A DNA stretch of 20,978 nucleotides, from the IMG/VR virus record IMGVR_UViG_3300047353_000757, positions 1 through 20,978 of that record; one strand, given 5' to 3'. Positions 9,084 through 19,852 of the stretch are shown piece by piece. The stretch's first letter is position 1. Every line of letters begins with the position of its first letter. Source of the stretch: a virus. The position numbers were made by a program, and so were the translations under genes. The notes below the pieces were generated by a model. The model saw only the letters and a program-made list of their open reading frames with translations. It searched no databases and was not told the DNA's origin.

Positions 9084-9796
9084 TTCGGTCCTATTTTATA
9101 AGTTAGGTGGTAATCATCAGGAAAGTTGTCTTTTTCAAATTCATATCGGATAAATCTAGAAACTTGTAATCTATCAGTAGTATTATACCACGTATCATTC
9201 CTTACGTGTTCCATATAATGTTGTTCATCAATATCTTTTTTCAACCACCTAAACTTTGTTTGATCCGTTAAAGTATAATTGATATCTCTCCATTTGACAA
9301 CCTCCAGCATAGCATACGTCATAATATTCTCTGCGTGTGATTCTGAATCAATATCAATACAAGCCTTCATCAGTTCTATAATCTTATCAACAGGTCCAGA
9401 GAAATAGTAGTCGCATAAGTATCCAACACTCCCAGTATCCCACCCAAAGCAATTGAAGTGATCATACTTAGTTAATTCCAGAACTTGAGGAATATCGACA
9501 AGGAAATCAGAACGAACTCTCATACCAAAATCATACCCTTTCTCTTTAAGATATTCAAATCCTTTGAGCGTAGTGATCCATACATACATTCCAAAGTGCT
9601 CATCATACTTTAGTTCTGGAGGATCCAAAGTAATCAGAGTGATATTAGATTGTGCAGAAATATTATCAAGGTGCTTCCTTGGTTGTGTATTCCAAGTGAC
9701 CCATACACATTCATAGTCCTTATAATGATCTATGATTTGTTGATGATGTTCTGTGAGACCTTGTATTACGATTGGTGGTTTCTTTCTGTTGCCCAT
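9080..9796 (-). CDS. WavE-like LPS synthesis protein, probable glycosyltransferase
   Basis: A 238-residue protein with FGMRVRSDFLVD (90-101), like the R/K-x-R-S-D core of the WavE lipopolysaccharide family, followed by FNCFGWDTGSVGYLCDYYFSG, which resembles that family's description of a figure or site. The early IVIQGLTEHH and WNTQP also fit. WavE proteins were found in the Vibrio cholerae LPS core cluster, and their exact reaction is not settled. The ATG at 9796 has AGAGGA only two bases upstream. The gene overlaps the upstream one by 31 bases, the longest overlap in this operon. It is most likely a glycosyltransferase of unknown donor. Confidence 0.62.
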   Translation of the reverse strand: MGNRKKPPIVIQGLTEHHQQIIDHYKDYECVWVTWNTQPRKHLDNISAQSNITLITLDPPELKYDEHFGMYVWITTLKGFEYLKEKGYDFGMRVRSDFLVDIPQVLELTKYDHFNCFGWDTGSVGYLCDYYFSGPVDKIIELMKACIDIDSESHAENIMTYAMLEVVKWRDINYTLTDQTKFRWLKKDIDEQHYMEHVRNDTWYNTTDRLQVSRFIRYEFEKDNFPDDYHLTYKIGPK

Positions 9797-10551
9797 ATTC
9801 CTCTATCCGAAACTAAATTAGTAAGATTTCCATTGTCGTCCCAAGCAAAACCAGGATACCCCCAGAGATAGTTTTCATATCCCTCAAGATTATTATCAAA
9901 CATTTCCTGCTTTCTATTGCTCAATACTGCCCAGTTATTTGCTGCTCTGAAGTCAACCCATTTCAAAGTAAGAATATCTTTGATTACACAGTTATTCTTC
10001 AGTGCCTCTGTCCAGGTATCTTCTTCACAGAGATTGAAAAAGTTCTTTGCATGTGGAACTAGTCCATCAAGATTGGGATACCAGTCTGTGATATTCCAAC
10101 ACTTTTTCATAACATCAACTGACCCAAAATTAAAAAGATCACATAGCACAAAGTTATCTATAGCAGTTGCTTGAGTAGTCAAATACTTCTTTCTTTCAAG
10201 TTCACACATACACCACTCAAAGATGTTAGGCATCAAATTGATACAGTCAAGTCTTCCCTTTAAAAGATGACTGAAACCTTGATACTTAGCGTGATCGATT
10301 CCGCGATTGACTAGAATAGGATGACCATATCCAATATCAGATCTGATTAGTTCATCACTCCAATCAACATAATCACAATACTCTTCAAGTTTATCTGGTT
10401 TCAATCCATGACCTGTGACTATAATATAGTCATATGGATTGTTCTTTCTATAGTGTTCAACTACAAAATTACACTGATCTAACTTTTGCTCTTGACCAGA
10501 TTCAATAAAAACGTGCGTGAGTAGAATGCACCCTTGATATTTAATACTCAT
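9766..10551 (-). CDS. Hypothetical protein, possible glycosyltransferase
   Basis: A 261-residue protein that I cannot assign with confidence. It has GCILLTHVFI near the start, YDYIIVTGHG (40-49), FSHLLKGRLDCINLMP (93-108) and several Trp and aromatic residues in the second half (NLEGYENYLWGYPGFAWDD). K-G-R-L-D at 98-102 recalls the K/R-x-R-x-D core of the WavE-like neighbour, so it may be a distant glycosyltransferase of the same type. The start is chosen as the ATG at 10551, which overlaps the sulfotransferase by 11 bases; upstream ATG (10572) and TTG (10590) codons are in frame. Its place in the operon supports a role in glycan assembly. Confidence 0.6.
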   Translation of the reverse strand: MSIKYQGCILLTHVFIESGQEQKLDQCNFVVEHYRKNNPYDYIIVTGHGLKPDKLEEYCDYVDWSDELIRSDIGYGHPILVNRGIDHAKYQGFSHLLKGRLDCINLMPNIFEWCMCELERKKYLTTQATAIDNFVLCDLFNFGSVDVMKKCWNITDWYPNLDGLVPHAKNFFNLCEEDTWTEALKNNCVIKDILTLKWVDFRAANNWAVLSNRKQEMFDNNLEGYENYLWGYPGFAWDDNGNLTNLVSDRGIWATERNHQS

Positions 10552-11317
10552 AATTATAGGTTTCAAGATCATTTGCAAAATGTTCTTCAATAATCTTTTT
10601 GGTCCTTGGAGTATACATCTCCCTATAGTATCTGTGATTAGACCTTCTATCTTGATTAATAGTTAAATCAAACCCAACTCTATCAGAGATATACTCCATA
10701 TCACTCTTAATAGTTTCAACCTTACCAATATAGTCTGGAATGTCACCGATGACATCTGTTTGCGGTAAAAAGTGAATATCTCTAGACCAACCACTATCTA
10801 CAAACTGCTCGCAGAAGTAATCAAATCCCATGTTCTTTTTGATTGTTAGGAACTTTCCACCATCAACATCAGCAAGAATATCAAAGTATGATAGTGGTTG
10901 ACCATCTATGTTCCAATCATATGCTTGTCTATAGTGACTATAAAAGTCATCGTAAGATTCAAACTGTTTGGGATCAGTTTCCCACATACGGTAGATACAG
11001 AGAGTATCATCTTCCCACAATCCTTTACTCTGCAAAAATGTTTTATAGTTATTCTGTATTCTACCTACCAGTCTGTTCTGAGTAAAATCGGACCAAGCAG
11101 ATAGCAATCTATCAAAAGGATTTCTAACGATGGCAAACTTAAAATATTCTGATTTATTGGGAAAGAACTCAAGGTAATCTTTCGCCTTCATATGATGAAG
11201 AACGGGTGGTGGATCATCAGTCCAACCATACCGTTCTTTTAATTTGATATGAATTGATGTTCCACCTGCCTTTGGAACGTGGAAAAAAATAAACTTTTCC
11301 TTATCAGATACTAACAT
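10541..11317 (-). CDS. Carbohydrate sulfotransferase (PAPS-dependent)
   Basis: A 258-residue sulfotransferase. FFHVPKAGGTSI (11-22) is the 5'-phosphosulfate-binding loop, and FAIVRNPFDRLLSAW (61-75) is the 3'-phosphate-binding motif with Arg65 and Ser73, as in the sulfotransferase 2 family of carbohydrate sulfotransferases. These enzymes move sulfate from PAPS to a sugar hydroxyl. PAPS would come from the host. No signal peptide or transmembrane segment is seen, so it should act in the cytoplasm on the growing glycan or on a nucleotide- or lipid-linked sugar. It joins the upstream fusion gene by TGATG. A sulfated sugar in a phage-encoded glycan is unusual. Confidence 0.88.
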   Translation of the reverse strand: MLVSDKEKFIFFHVPKAGGTSIHIKLKERYGWTDDPPPVLHHMKAKDYLEFFPNKSEYFKFAIVRNPFDRLLSAWSDFTQNRLVGRIQNNYKTFLQSKGLWEDDTLCIYRMWETDPKQFESYDDFYSHYRQAYDWNIDGQPLSYFDILADVDGGKFLTIKKNMGFDYFCEQFVDSGWSRDIHFLPQTDVIGDIPDYIGKVETIKSDMEYISDRVGFDLTINQDRRSNHRYYREMYTPRTKKIIEEHFANDLETYNYEY

Positions 11318-12471
11318 CAGATAAACTTATTCAATCTAGTAAAGTGTCGTCCACCATCAAACGATGTATGCTGGATAGTATCGATAATAATCTCCATAGT
11401 TGATGGGTCAACATACTTTGAGGGAATGGCAAAATGATTAGCACAGTTGTGTCTAATCGCGTGCTCTGCAGTATAGTCATCGAAGACCAGTGCAGAGATA
11501 ATATCATTAGATTTGTTTGCCGCCAAGTTCACGCCCTGCCCAGAACGACAGAATGACATTGCAAAGTTACACTCGTTAGAGTAAATCAGAGATACTGACT
11601 GGGAAACATAATCATAGTAGTCACAAGGTTTATCTACATAGGTTCCAACGTCAATATAAGGAATACCTTTTACCTCAAGGATAGTCTTTGCTTTTTCTTT
11701 CAGTTCCCACCCAGAGTGATCACAAGCAAGTGCTACAGGTTTCTCTCCAAATCCTCTAATAACTCTCTTACAAAAGAACTCAAACGTTGCTGGCGTTCCA
11801 AGAACGTGCATCTTTTCAGTATCGTGTGCAGTAACCGTCAGACCATCTTCAATCATAAGGTTATACATTGGAGCAATATAGAACTCACCTTTTACATACA
11901 TTTCCTCATCAATGACACGTTTACCATATTTCAAAAACATATTACCTGTCTTGAAATAATAAAGACCGACGTTTGCGTGTTCAGAAATAACCTCCTTCTC
12001 TACTACTCTCGCTACCTTACCATTAATATCGGTCTCAGCATAACTGTGATCAGAACTATTTGCTAAAAACGTCAGCAAGAAACCATCAGAATCTACATCA
12101 ATAGTTTCTGGTTTGAACACTGGTTCAAAGCAGACATCAGGAGTGTAGATGATAAGTGGAATATTATTATCAATATACTTCTCTGCCAGAACACAAGTCT
12201 CAAGTGCTCCGCGTGTAACTTTATCTACAACAACAATCTGAATATCCTCTCCAAACTTTTGCTTCAGAATCTTATCAATACTAAAGTTATAGATGTGATC
12301 TAGTCTTATGATAAAGATAAGATTACACTCACTAGTATCAACAGAATCAATAGACCAGTCAATGACGTGCTTATCCTTAGCAAGGATAAGTGGTTTGGGC
12401 ATCATAAACCCAGCATCAAGGAACCTCTGTGCTCTTCCAGCAATGGGAAGAAGAAGATTATATTTTTTCAT
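11317..12471 (-). CDS. Fused sugar nucleotidyltransferase and RpiB-type sugar-phosphate isomerase
   Basis: A 384-residue bifunctional protein. Residues 1 to about 235 are a nucleotidyltransferase: NLLLPIAGRAQRF (5-17), a variant of the G-x-G-x-R signature, MPKPLI (24-29) with the conserved Lys26, IIYTPDV (107-113) with a metal-type Asp112, and ANVGLYYFK (166-174). Residues about 245-384 are an RpiB/LacAB isomerase: LACDHSGWELK (248-258), SFCRSGQGVNLAANK (306-320) with Cys308 as the proton-transfer residue, RHNCANHFAIP (340-350) with His341, and GGRHFTRLNKF (373-383). The second domain also has DVGTYV..CDYYDYV, as in RpiB. Both active sites look intact. It follows the kinase gene by ATGA. The substrate is unknown; see the pathway finding. 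Confidence 0.88.
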   Translation of the reverse strand: MKKYNLLLPIAGRAQRFLDAGFMMPKPLILAKDKHVIDWSIDSVDTSECNLIFIIRLDHIYNFSIDKILKQKFGEDIQIVVVDKVTRGALETCVLAEKYIDNNIPLIIYTPDVCFEPVFKPETIDVDSDGFLLTFLANSSDHSYAETDINGKVARVVEKEVISEHANVGLYYFKTGNMFLKYGKRVIDEEMYVKGEFYIAPMYNLMIEDGLTVTAHDTEKMHVLGTPATFEFFCKRVIRGFGEKPVALACDHSGWELKEKAKTILEVKGIPYIDVGTYVDKPCDYYDYVSQSVSLIYSNECNFAMSFCRSGQGVNLAANKSNDIISALVFDDYTAEHAIRHNCANHFAIPSKYVDPSTMEIIIDTIQHTSFDGGRHFTRLNKFI

Positions 12472-13139
12472 TTAGAACTCTTAAGAATTTCAGTTGTAGT
12501 TAAATGTGCGTATTCAATCCAGTCGTGGATATCTCCATATCCCTCTAGTAATTTATAAAGAAAACAAGAGGCAAATATATCACCAGCACCAAGAACATTA
12601 ACGTTCTTTAGCATCAGTTCCTTTGGTAGTTTGTAGAAAAACTCCTCTTCCCCATTAGATACAACGCTTCCAGATGCACTATGAAGAATCACCCACCCCT
12701 TTGTAGAGTTAGTGTATTCTGAAAGACTATCATTGATATCTTCATCAGAGATGAATAGATAGTCCACATACTGAAGCATCTCCATATTAACTGGTTTGCC
12801 AGGACAAATATCGGCAGTGACAATACTGTCCAAAGCAGGGATGAAATCGTGTCGTGTCAGTTCATTTAGATAAATCAGATGACTGATCTTAGAACTCATC
12901 ATCTTTACCTGATGCTGCACTAAACTCAAGTTGACTTTGGAATATCTTTTTGCAGCAGGTTTATCAACATAGATGAGAGCTTGTCCTACATCAATAGGAG
13001 ACAATCCAATATCAAGAGTTGGATCAATTTCTAATAATGCCTTCCAAACATTTGCCATTGATCCCAAAGTTTTCTTTTCTACATCACCATCAACAATAGT
13101 ATCGATAGTTAGATGACCATAAAGTGCAATGTCTTTCAT
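12468..13139 (-). CDS. PfkB-like sugar(-phosphate) kinase
   Basis: A 223-residue member of the ribokinase/PfkB superfamily. The C-terminal NVLGAGDIFASCFLYKLLEG (181-200) is the PfkB signature, with the anion-hole G-A-G and catalytic base Asp187. GSMANVWKALLEI (26-38) corresponds to the G-G-x-x-N-x-A substrate-domain helix, and YLFISDEDI (127-135) to the N-x-x-E/D region. It is short (a typical member has about 300 residues), mainly through loss of the lid and some middle strands. PfkB kinases act in ADP-heptose synthesis (the HldE kinase domain), which is relevant to its place between a HAD phosphatase and a nucleotidyltransferase-isomerase. It is coupled to both by TGATG and ATGA overlaps. 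Confidence 0.82.
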   Translation of the reverse strand: MKDIALYGHLTIDTIVDGDVEKKTLGSMANVWKALLEIDPTLDIGLSPIDVGQALIYVDKPAAKRYSKVNLSLVQHQVKMMSSKISHLIYLNELTRHDFIPALDSIVTADICPGKPVNMEMLQYVDYLFISDEDINDSLSEYTNSTKGWVILHSASGSVVSNGEEEFFYKLPKELMLKNVNVLGAGDIFASCFLYKLLEGYGDIHDWIEYAHLTTTEILKSSK

Positions 13140-13675
13140 CAGAACTTTTCTTTCAAATCAAGTTCGTAAATCTTATCTATTACTTTATCATAAGAAACAC
13201 AAGGAAGCAACCCATCTATTTCAAGTGTGTCGAATAGTGTCATAACTACATTTTCACCACCCTTAACTGACAGAACCTTTGCAACCTGCTTTACTATTCT
13301 TGGAGAATCCAACATACAAACAGGATATCTTACCTTCTTCATAATACCAATATCAAAAAGATCATCCCCAACATAAGCAGTATCTTTCTCTGTGCAATTA
13401 TATTGCTTCAAGATATCATCAAGATAATTTGCCTTGTCACTATGAAAACCTGATCCGCGATTAGCAATGACGTGTAAATTTCTGTTCTCAAGGATGCTAA
13501 CGTTGTACGGATCACCAGTCAAGAATACAACATTGACTCCGATTGCACGGAATCGTTTAATTGCAGTCCAATCTTTATCACAGAAAGTTTTAAGTTTTAC
13601 TGTCCCTTCACGATCATAATATTTGATACCGTCTGTCATAACGCCATCAACATCCAAAATTAATAATTTAATCAC
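13139..13675 (-). CDS. KdsC-like HAD sugar-phosphate phosphatase
   Basis: A 178-residue HAD-superfamily phosphatase of the KdsC type without a cap domain. Motif I is LLILDVDGVMTDG (4-16) with nucleophile Asp8 and acid Asp10, motif II is FLTGD (51-55) with Thr53, Lys81 (SDKANYL) is motif III, and VGDDLFD (102-108) is motif IV. Related enzymes include Kdo-8-phosphate phosphatase. The start is a GTG at 13675: the only nearby ATG would fall inside motif I, and AGGGGA lies eight bases upstream of the GTG. The GTG overlaps the preceding TAG by one base. It probably removes the non-anomeric phosphate from a sugar bisphosphate made by the adjacent kinase. Confidence 0.88.
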   Translation of the reverse strand: MIKLLILDVDGVMTDGIKYYDREGTVKLKTFCDKDWTAIKRFRAIGVNVVFLTGDPYNVSILENRNLHVIANRGSGFHSDKANYLDDILKQYNCTEKDTAYVGDDLFDIGIMKKVRYPVCMLDSPRIVKQVAKVLSVKGGENVVMTLFDTLEIDGLLPCVSYDKVIDKIYELDLKEKF

Positions 13676-18545: not shown

Positions 18546-18720
18546 TTGCGGATTCCCTCCTTTCGCAGGTGGTCTTTTCAAATAAGACTGGATGTGCTGT
18601 TCCGTTTCCGTCATATTTGTCACTTTCATAATAGATATTTTCACCTTTTCTGTACCCGAAATAGATGGTGGCACATAGAAAGGGTAGTGATCCGAAAAGT
18701 AAGACATCAGATAAAGTCAT
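18526..18720 (-). CDS. Small single-pass membrane protein
   Basis: A 64-residue protein with an N-terminal hydrophobic helix (LSDVLLFGSLPFLCATIYFG, residues 3-22) followed by a basic R-K and a polar tail (ENIYYESDKYDGNG, later TTCERRESANGSRKN). This fits an N-out, C-in one-helix membrane protein. The ATG at 18720 overlaps the stop of the gnd-like gene by ATGA, which is the reason to prefer it over the longer frame on the same strand at 18336-18707. The function is unknown; its position within a pentose-phosphate gene group may be only operon sharing. Confidence 0.6.
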   Translation of the reverse strand: MTLSDVLLFGSLPFLCATIYFGYRKGENIYYESDKYDGNGTAHPVLFEKTTCERRESANGSRKN

Positions 18721-19202
18721 TCAATATTGCTTGCGGATAGACATTGAAAAATTTTAGAGCAAGCATCAACAGCATAGGGTGCTCCATATACTCCAGAGAA
18801 AATATATGAGATACCTAACTTAGAGCAGTACTTCTCTAGTTCCTGACATTTTTTTATGTCACTGTTGCTATAGTCAATAATAATATCACCCTCCTCAAGT
18901 AAAGGTAGTAACTCATCAAGTGTGTCCTCTACGCTTACTTCTGGGAGTGCAATTTGAAAGATGCCTGGTTGTTTTGTATAGATTGCTTCTCCAGATTTTT
19001 CACCATAGATAGTCTCTACTGTTTTTACTTGATTGACAAGACCTTTAAGATTGGTAGTAACGCCAGTAACATATCCATTTTCATATGTCTCTTGTGCTCT
19101 GTCATAATTTTTTTGATACCCCCAGACTGTTATGCCTGCTTTCAGCATACGGCGAGACATACCCTCACCCATACGACCGAGACCAATCATTCCTACTCTC
19201 AT
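18717..19202 (-). CDS. Truncated 6-phosphogluconate dehydrogenase-like protein (NADP-binding domain only)
   Basis: A 161-residue protein related to the N-terminal domain of decarboxylating 6-phosphogluconate dehydrogenase. MRVGMIGLGRMGEGMSRRML (1-20) is the dinucleotide-binding motif, and LLEEGDIIIDYSNSD (101-115) is the family's G-D-I-I-I-D-x-x-N-S. It ends where the catalytic part should begin: the usual G-x-S-G-G region is replaced by FSGVYGAPYAVD (135-146), the catalytic Lys is not found and the helical dimerisation domain is missing. The start at 19202 is supported by AAAGGAGG and an ATGA overlap with talC; the frame extends to 19229 without benefit. It is either a remodelled redox or binding protein or a decaying gnd. 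Confidence 0.75.
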   Translation of the reverse strand: MRVGMIGLGRMGEGMSRRMLKAGITVWGYQKNYDRAQETYENGYVTGVTTNLKGLVNQVKTVETIYGEKSGEAIYTKQPGIFQIALPEVSVEDTLDELLPLLEEGDIIIDYSNSDIKKCQELEKYCSKLGISYIFSGVYGAPYAVDACSKIFQCLSASNIE

Positions 19203-19852
19203 ACTTCTCCTCCTTTTACTTGAGACCAATCGTTTTCAAAAATATCCATACCCTTGTCGGTAAGAATATGATCATACATCTGTTCAAATACTTTTGGCGG
19301 CATTGTTACGATTTGCGCACCGTTGTACCAGGATCTAACAGCACGTTGCACATTACGAATAGATGCAGACAGTACTTGAGTTCTGATACCATGAATCTGA
19401 TATAGTCCTGTGATAGAACGCACAACTTCTAAACCAGCGATAGACTGATCATCAAGGCGTCCCACAAATGGAGACACATAAGTAGCACCTGCCTTAGCAG
19501 CAAGAATTGCCTGAGCAGCACAGAATATAAGTGTGACATTTGTTCTAATGCCATCAGAAGCAAGATAGCGACACGTTGCCAAACCATCTTTAGTACATGG
19601 AACTTTAATTGTAGCAACATCGCCAAACTTTTTATGAAGACGACGACCCTCTTGGAGCATTTCAGTCCAGTTACCCATCACCTCCATACTGATGTCTCGA
19701 ACACCAATATCTTTGATCTCTTGATAGACCTCTTCAGGATCTTTACCAGATTTCATAATGAGGGTAGGATTGGTTGTAATACCGTCAATTAGTCCCGTAG
19801 TAAATGCTTCTGCAATAGTAGGAACTTCTGCTGTGTCTAAAAATATTTTCAT
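19199..19852 (-). CDS. talC: TalC-type transaldolase
   Basis: A 217-residue short transaldolase of the TalC/fructose-6-phosphate aldolase class. KIFLDTAEVPTIAEA (2-16) has the conserved Asp6, GITTNPTLI (24-32) is the family's T-T-N-P-T, and VATIKVPCT (79-87) holds the Schiff-base Lys83. SPFVGRLDD (at about residue 127 onward) is another hallmark. Transaldolase interconverts sedoheptulose-7-phosphate plus glyceraldehyde-3-phosphate with erythrose-4-phosphate plus fructose-6-phosphate. Cyanophage TalC is thought to redirect host Calvin-cycle carbon to the pentose phosphate pathway for NADPH and nucleotides. It may also affect the sugar-phosphate pool for the activated-sugar module (inference). 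Confidence 0.95.
   Translation of the reverse strand: MKIFLDTAEVPTIAEAFTTGLIDGITTNPTLIMKSGKDPEEVYQEIKDIGVRDISMEVMGNWTEMLQEGRRLHKKFGDVATIKVPCTKDGLATCRYLASDGIRTNVTLIFCAAQAILAAKAGATYVSPFVGRLDDQSIAGLEVVRSITGLYQIHGIRTQVLSASIRNVQRAVRSWYNGAQIVTMPPKVFEQMYDHILTDKGMDIFENDWSQVKGGEV

Follow-up and report, generated by a model that had tools for sequence, protein, structure and literature searches.

The GDP-heptose (Hdd) route of Campylobacter jejuni makes an activated sugar with a ketose-phosphate isomerase, a C1 kinase, a distal phosphatase and an NTP_transferase-type nucleotidyltransferase (PMC10680097). The arabinose module of phage RB69 and other Mosigviruses has been proposed to make an activated pentose; this pathway is unproven, and its product decorates DNA (PMC6024577, PMC13390438). 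Incorporation of ribofuranose uses phosphoribosyl pyrophosphate (PRPP) or polyprenyl-phosphoribose and has been described as an exception to nucleoside diphosphate (NDP) sugar donors (PMC11127046). The part of a jumbo-phage survey cited here reports PfkB kinases and HIGH-type nucleotidyltransferases in cyanophage sugar clusters and does not mention the gene set described below (PMC7824862). Here we analyse this set on the IMG/VR virus record IMGVR_UViG_3300047353_000757 (20,978 bases; the window). It encodes a KdsC-like HAD phosphatase, a PfkB-type kinase and a nucleotidyltransferase (NTase) fused to an RpiB isomerase domain, together referred to as the triad. The triad is probably, at about 0.6, a dedicated NDP-sugar pathway, encoded in a virus-confined operon of T4-like cyanophages and fed by a sugar phosphate from the pentose phosphate pathway.

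On the minus strand, three intact open reading frames make up the triad, with the fusion spanning positions 11317 to 12471. The stop codon of the HAD gene overlaps the start codon of the PfkB gene (TGATG), the PfkB stop overlaps the start of the fusion (ATGA), and the genes flanking the triad overlap as well. The triad is embedded in a long series of overlapping sugar genes, which includes UDP-galactopyranose mutase, gmd, fcl, a sulfotransferase and a GT2-type glycosyltransferase. Regional DNA similarity together with genes for transaldolase and a short 6-phosphogluconate dehydrogenase points to a T4-like cyanophage as the likely source. The latter gene (18717-19229, 170 aa, PHROG 3646) adjoins the transaldolase gene and contains the NAD-binding part only.

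IMG/VR was scanned separately with the NTase-RpiB fusion, the PfkB kinase and the HAD phosphatase, and mostly the same contigs were returned. Among anchors with enough flanking sequence, a count that includes recurring contigs and overlapping loci of one contig, the full triad was found in the same order for 149 of 154 HAD, 147 of 151 PfkB and 153 of 155 RpiB anchors. Removal of duplicates at 95% identity left 48 non-redundant loci, all of which contain the HAD and 47 the PfkB gene. Chance adjacency is ruled out because independent queries give identical gene order. The same triad is present in Synechococcus phages Bellamy and SynMITS9220M01, where the annotation goes no further than phosphatase and hypothetical protein.

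Peptide patterns specific to the RpiB subfamily were run against 84,980 cellular genomes, an exact-pattern approach that can miss diverged members, and gave three hits. Two of these are ordinary RpiBs and one is a true fusion (L191). A cellular origin was rejected, since this best hit and L086 are one and the same phage contig, which had been misbinned. The 16-kb contig was placed in a Crocinitomicaceae metagenome-assembled genome (PACT01000001.1) and is shared with IMG/VR contig 2825980227_000005. Among the matches listed (ordered by score) for 297 genomes of the phylum assigned to L191, no other full-length fusion was found, and a plasmid search yielded NTase-only or RpiB-only relatives. Within what was searched, the fusion is confined to viruses.

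Comparison of the window with L086 showed identities of 99% for HAD and 90% for PfkB, but of 50% for NTase and 46% for RpiB. With L181 the pattern is reversed (NTase 83%, RpiB 71%, PfkB 36%), and other loci match the NTase of the window at about 80%. The window operon is a mosaic of two phage clades, one the source of HAD and PfkB and the other of NTase-RpiB, with the switch near the PfkB/NTase junction. It follows from the contrast in identity that NTase and RpiB were exchanged jointly, as a single unit, and that the set stayed unbroken. A swap of this kind suggests a common substrate.

The HAD protein matches Pfam Hydrolase_3 (E 2.2e-9) and is nearest to KdsC in NCBIfam (E 1e-24), with 84.8 bits for TIGR01670 at a cut-off of 106.95. 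Residues D8, D10, G11, K81 and G103-D104-D105 are invariant in 21 relatives and HAD C0 motifs are present. The protein is thus best described as a putative relative of KdsC/YrbI and not as a certified KdsC. The kinase scores 28.4 bits with PF00294 (cut-off 25.8), which places it in the PfkB family; D13, N30 and G184-x-G186-D187 (GAGD) are invariant in 20 relatives. Its AlphaFold model has a mean pLDDT of 94.6, and the structural matches are of the ribokinase fold. This short kinase scores weakly against all PfkB subfamily models, and family scores give no substrate clue for either kinase or phosphatase.

The fusion combines NTP_transferase (24.0 bits, cut-off 21.2) and LacAB_rpiB (PF02502, E 2.4e-31) in a single 384-aa protein, modelled by AlphaFold with a mean pLDDT of 87. 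The NTase half matches RmlA/GlmU-type families (NCBIfam); its best PDB match is 4evw, an uncharacterised Vibrio NDP-sugar pyrophosphorylase, and P25-K26, D112 and E158-K159 are invariant in 21 relatives. For the RpiB half the best PDB match is RpiB 1o1x, with a target TM-score of 0.89. It belongs to the LacAB_rpiB family (PF02502 109 bits, cut-off 24.7; TIGR00689 106.8 bits, cut-off 88.3) and lies below the RpiB equivalog threshold (TIGR01120 86.8 bits versus 138.65). Residues D251-H252, C308, H341-N342, G374-R375 and R379 align to RpiB active-site positions and are invariant in the phage sequences; C308, H341, R375 and R379 are presumably the catalytic cysteine, the catalytic histidine and the phosphate-binding arginines. 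All 21 phage sequences carry the loop FCR[ST]GQG, in which C308, R309 and Q312 are invariant, where the five solved RpiBs compared have CGTGxG. The RpiB domain thus forms a separate subfamily, and because of the altered loop and the score below the equivalog threshold its substrate or anomer preference may have changed.

A further gene accompanies the triad. Homologues of a GDPD-like protein are encoded in 46 of the 48 non-redundant loci, and HRG, ExD and GHD residues (H6, R7, E35, D37, H48) as well as H70, K72, H93 and D138 are invariant in the 46 sequences. The protein gave no Pfam hit and was assigned to PHROG 34507; its assignment as GDPD-like is a reading of these motifs and is therefore putative. 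A cupin gene follows the fusion in 25 of the 48 loci. In bacteria, the GDPD-like and cupin families also occur beside related NTases that lack RpiB or PfkB, and the GDPD-like family is found beside a related NTase in S-CAM9 and B23. Both proteins probably work together with the NTase or on its product. The plasmid lipopolysaccharide (LPS)/capsule clusters L186, L187 and L188 combine a related NTase with a cupin and a GDPD-like protein in an uncharacterised sugar cassette; L186 and L187 also encode beta-phosphoglucomutase-family HADs. The initial annotation had described the three overlapping genes from the sequence and had made its interpretation depend on their being found together elsewhere. 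Intact frames, junction overlaps, Pfam/NCBIfam domains and AlphaFold folds bear out the genes, and the neighbourhood scans found the triad together in nearly all loci. The constant GDPD-like partner had been missed.

In the proposed pathway, the RpiB domain would interconvert a ketose phosphate and an aldose phosphate, the PfkB enzyme would phosphorylate the aldose phosphate at C1, the KdsC-like HAD would remove the distal phosphate and the NTP_transferase domain would activate the sugar-1-phosphate to an NDP-sugar. The input would most likely be ribulose-5-phosphate or ribose-5-phosphate and the output an NDP-pentose, with NDP-ribose as the simplest case, which neighbouring glycosyltransferases would probably use for a surface glycan. 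While the domains and their catalytic residues, the order of the genes, their conservation and their distribution are observed, we infer every reaction, the reaction order, the substrate, the nucleotide and the final use. The four-step logic is partly supported, as it would fit the conserved domains, the invariant catalytic residues and the near-perfect co-occurrence. This sequence of isomerisation, C1 phosphorylation, dephosphorylation and activation had already been suggested in the initial annotation and agrees with the same evidence, except that the isomerase is optional, as a sister clade without RpiB shows. The parallel drawn there to heptose synthesis holds for the step types, which match those of the GDP-heptose route, but they are not unique to heptoses in phages, as the proposed arabinose module of RB69 illustrates. 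The statement that no described system has this combination stands: literature searches turned up no description of a phosphatase-PfkB-NTase-RpiB set. A narrower version, in which viruses alone would use the NTase-fused RpiB subfamily to make a glycan donor, either true NDP-ribose or a different NDP-pentose obtained directly from a pentose-5-phosphate, is put forward tentatively, with the odds against it. A literature search for NDP-ribose returned mainly papers on NAD and ADP-ribosyl cyclases.

Variant operons bear on the substrate. About 12 contigs form a sister clade that has HAD-PfkB-NTase but no RpiB, which makes the isomerase dispensable. Ten of these records, most of them fragments, were searched and gave no RpiB- or RpiA-family match. 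A dispensable isomerase would fit a sugar phosphate that every host makes, ribose-5-phosphate being the simplest; host RpiA would supply ribose-5-phosphate. A split transketolase gene with separate N and C parts adjoins the set at L077:4641-5755, L023:8161-9274 and L024:8159-9272, in two contigs with RpiB and one without. This neighbour points to pentose-phosphate chemistry, and sedoheptulose-7-phosphate would be compatible too. HADs of the beta-phosphoglucomutase family are fused to the related NTase in S-CAM9 and encoded close to its bacterial relatives. Since a mutase transfers phosphate to C1 by way of a bisphosphate, kinase and phosphatase could replace a mutase with the same net result. 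Many HADs of the beta-phosphoglucomutase family are plain phosphatases.

Several points weigh against the proposed pathway. The constant GDPD-like partner and the cupin of 25 loci have no role in a four-step scheme. The Gly to Arg change beside the catalytic Cys, relative to the five solved RpiBs, may mean that the substrate is other than ribulose-5-phosphate. PfkB kinases phosphorylate a primary hydroxyl more often than C1, and HADs of the KdsC type may show promiscuity. No PfkB was detected at locus L022: its 112.8 kb record gave no PF00294 match in a search that also missed the diverged kinase of L024. A single-sequence scan for L077-like kinases matched L077 alone. Finally, the RpiA model PF06026 used for the sister clade failed to register in the Synechococcus elongatus control genome.

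The same four steps might act on a hexose or heptose phosphate such as allulose-6-phosphate or sedoheptulose-7-phosphate, in which case non-homologous enzymes would yield an NDP-hexose or NDP-heptose. Activity on allose-6-phosphate is known in the RpiB family, and the altered loop suggests a changed substrate. The step types are those of GDP-heptose synthesis (PMC10680097), and transketolase, the neighbour in L023, L024 and L077, makes sedoheptulose-7-phosphate. We consider this explanation unlikely, since a heptose route would be left incomplete in the sister clade, which has lost the isomerase, and heptose is absent from the marine Synechococcus LPS studied so far (PMC4515613). SynMITS9220M01 furthermore carries an HddA/HddC-like pair in addition to the triad. 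At L196:467-2666 of this phage an HddA-like kinase, a GmhA-like SIS isomerase and a HAD fused to a HIGH-type nucleotidyltransferase lie in a row, a second four-step set. Because these sets are separate, the triad product is probably a different one.

Alternatively, the NTase might make a non-anomeric or polyol NDP compound of the CDP-glycerol/CDP-alditol type. A phosphodiester product would then be processed by the GDPD-like enzyme, and RpiB and PfkB would supply only the precursor. Such a route would account for the near-constant GDPD-like gene and its place with the NTase in S-CAM9 and B23; weaker GDPD-like hits near bacterial NTases and LicC among the structural matches of the NTase point the same way. 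It is nevertheless quite unlikely, as known CDP-alditol routes need neither an RpiB fusion nor a PfkB kinase and none of the constant partners was recognised as a reductase.

The pathway might also be an analogue of the RB69 arabinose route that provides NDP-arabinose or another pentose for DNA hypermodification and not for a glycan. The RB69 region encodes an arabinose-5-phosphate-isomerase-like SIS protein, an NTase, a kinase-like domain and a small HAD-like reading frame, and arabinose is present on RB69 DNA (PMC6024577). The isomerase and kinase families of the triad differ from those of RB69, however, and the triad sits among glycosyltransferases, gmd/fcl and a sulfotransferase and not among replication genes, which makes this function improbable. 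A Kdo- or nonulosonate-type route (arabinose-5-phosphate isomerase, KdsC phosphatase, CMP transferase) is suggested by the KdsC-like HAD but is highly improbable, since a PfkB kinase has no role in it, the NTase is NTP_transferase/RmlA-like and not of the CMP-Kdo synthetase family, and inspection of the conserved neighbours, though not of whole phage genomes, revealed no KdsA-like synthase or KdsB.

The features of the locus are collected in the table. The sulfotransferase cluster is present in 11 of the 48 non-redundant loci and is a frequent, not a constant neighbour. In these 11 loci the sulfotransferase travels as a pair with a gene without Pfam hit, located at 9766-10590 in the window (clusters c10 and c11).

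Features of the triad and its surroundings in the window, with the basis of each assignment and proposed roles.
Feature	Position	Strand	Basis and proposed role
HAD phosphatase, KdsC-like (C0 type), 178 aa	13139..13675	-	KdsC/YrbI nearest; proposed distal-phosphate phosphatase
Short PfkB/ribokinase-fold kinase, 223 aa	12468..13139	-	Pfam, motifs, model; proposed anomeric (C1) kinase
NTP_transferase domain, fusion residues 1-240	11752..12471	-	Pfam, PDB match; proposed sugar-1-phosphate nucleotidyltransferase
RpiB domain, fusion residues about 241-384	11317..11751	-	PF02502; proposed ketose-phosphate/aldose-phosphate isomerase
Altered catalytic loop FCRSGQG of the RpiB domain	11533..11553	-	Alignment to five solved RpiBs
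GDPD-like mini-TIM protein, 144 aa	14394..14828	-	Homologues in 46/48 loci; conserved residues
Sulfotransferase family gene, directly downstream of the fusion	10541..11317	-	PF03567 E 2.4e-18; context, not core

If the proposed NDP-sugar pathway is correct, cyanophages can produce an activated sugar themselves out of pentose phosphate pathway intermediates, with enzyme families that are not otherwise known to act in one pathway. The known push of cyanophages on the pentose phosphate pathway would then be linked to surface-sugar synthesis. Comparison of the three kinds of variant (without RpiB, with transketolase, with a mutase-family HAD) offers a way to test which substrate is used.

Compared with the GDP-heptose route, RpiB, PfkB and the KdsC-like phosphatase of the triad take the places of the SIS, GHMP and GmhB-like enzymes, and the NTase is fused to the isomerase. 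Membership in the Hdd system was ruled out, as SIS-type GmhA, GHMP HddA, GmhB and HddC are absent from the triad above cut-off. In the ADP-heptose route, C1 phosphorylation is carried out by the PfkB-fold kinase domain of HldE, as proposed for the triad kinase. HldE joins this domain to a HIGH-type nucleotidyltransferase, whereas the triad NTase is of a different fold, and the isomerase and phosphatase families differ as well.

The RB69/Mosigvirus module (ORF055c, ORF53_52c, ORF051) likewise belongs to T4-like phages and comprises a pentose-phosphate isomerase, a kinase-like domain, an NTP_transferase and apparently a HAD (PMC6024577, PMC13390438). RB69 has a SIS isomerase and, according to weak Pfam hits, an APH-like kinase where the triad has RpiB and PfkB. 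The RpiB and PfkB profiles of the triad do not match the RB69 reading frames, and the NTase profile matches ORF053 weakly (E 2e-7). The triad was therefore rejected as a member of this module: isomerase and kinase are not homologous, and the NTase alone is distantly alike. RB69 ORF051c (L215:2209-2595) is annotated as phosphoheptose isomerase, yet starts like a HAD phosphatase (CFDVDDCITEW); such an enzyme would complete a four-step arabinose set.

The HAD-NTase fusion of S-CAM9 and B23 and the bacterial LPS/capsule clusters encode homologous NTases (E about 1e-32 to 1e-86). They share the GDPD-like family, weakly in the bacteria, which also share a homologous cupin. Their HAD is of the beta-phosphoglucomutase family (the B23 HAD was not scanned), and RpiB, PfkB and the KdsC-like HAD were not detected in them. 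Relative to the literature searched, the enzyme combination of the triad thus appears to be new, while its four-step logic is already known. The PRPP-dependent ribofuranose route would likewise put a pentose into a glycan and differs in having no nucleotidyltransferase; since the bacterial glycans studied take ribofuranose from PRPP, NDP-ribose, if it is the product, would be a new type of donor (PMC11127046).

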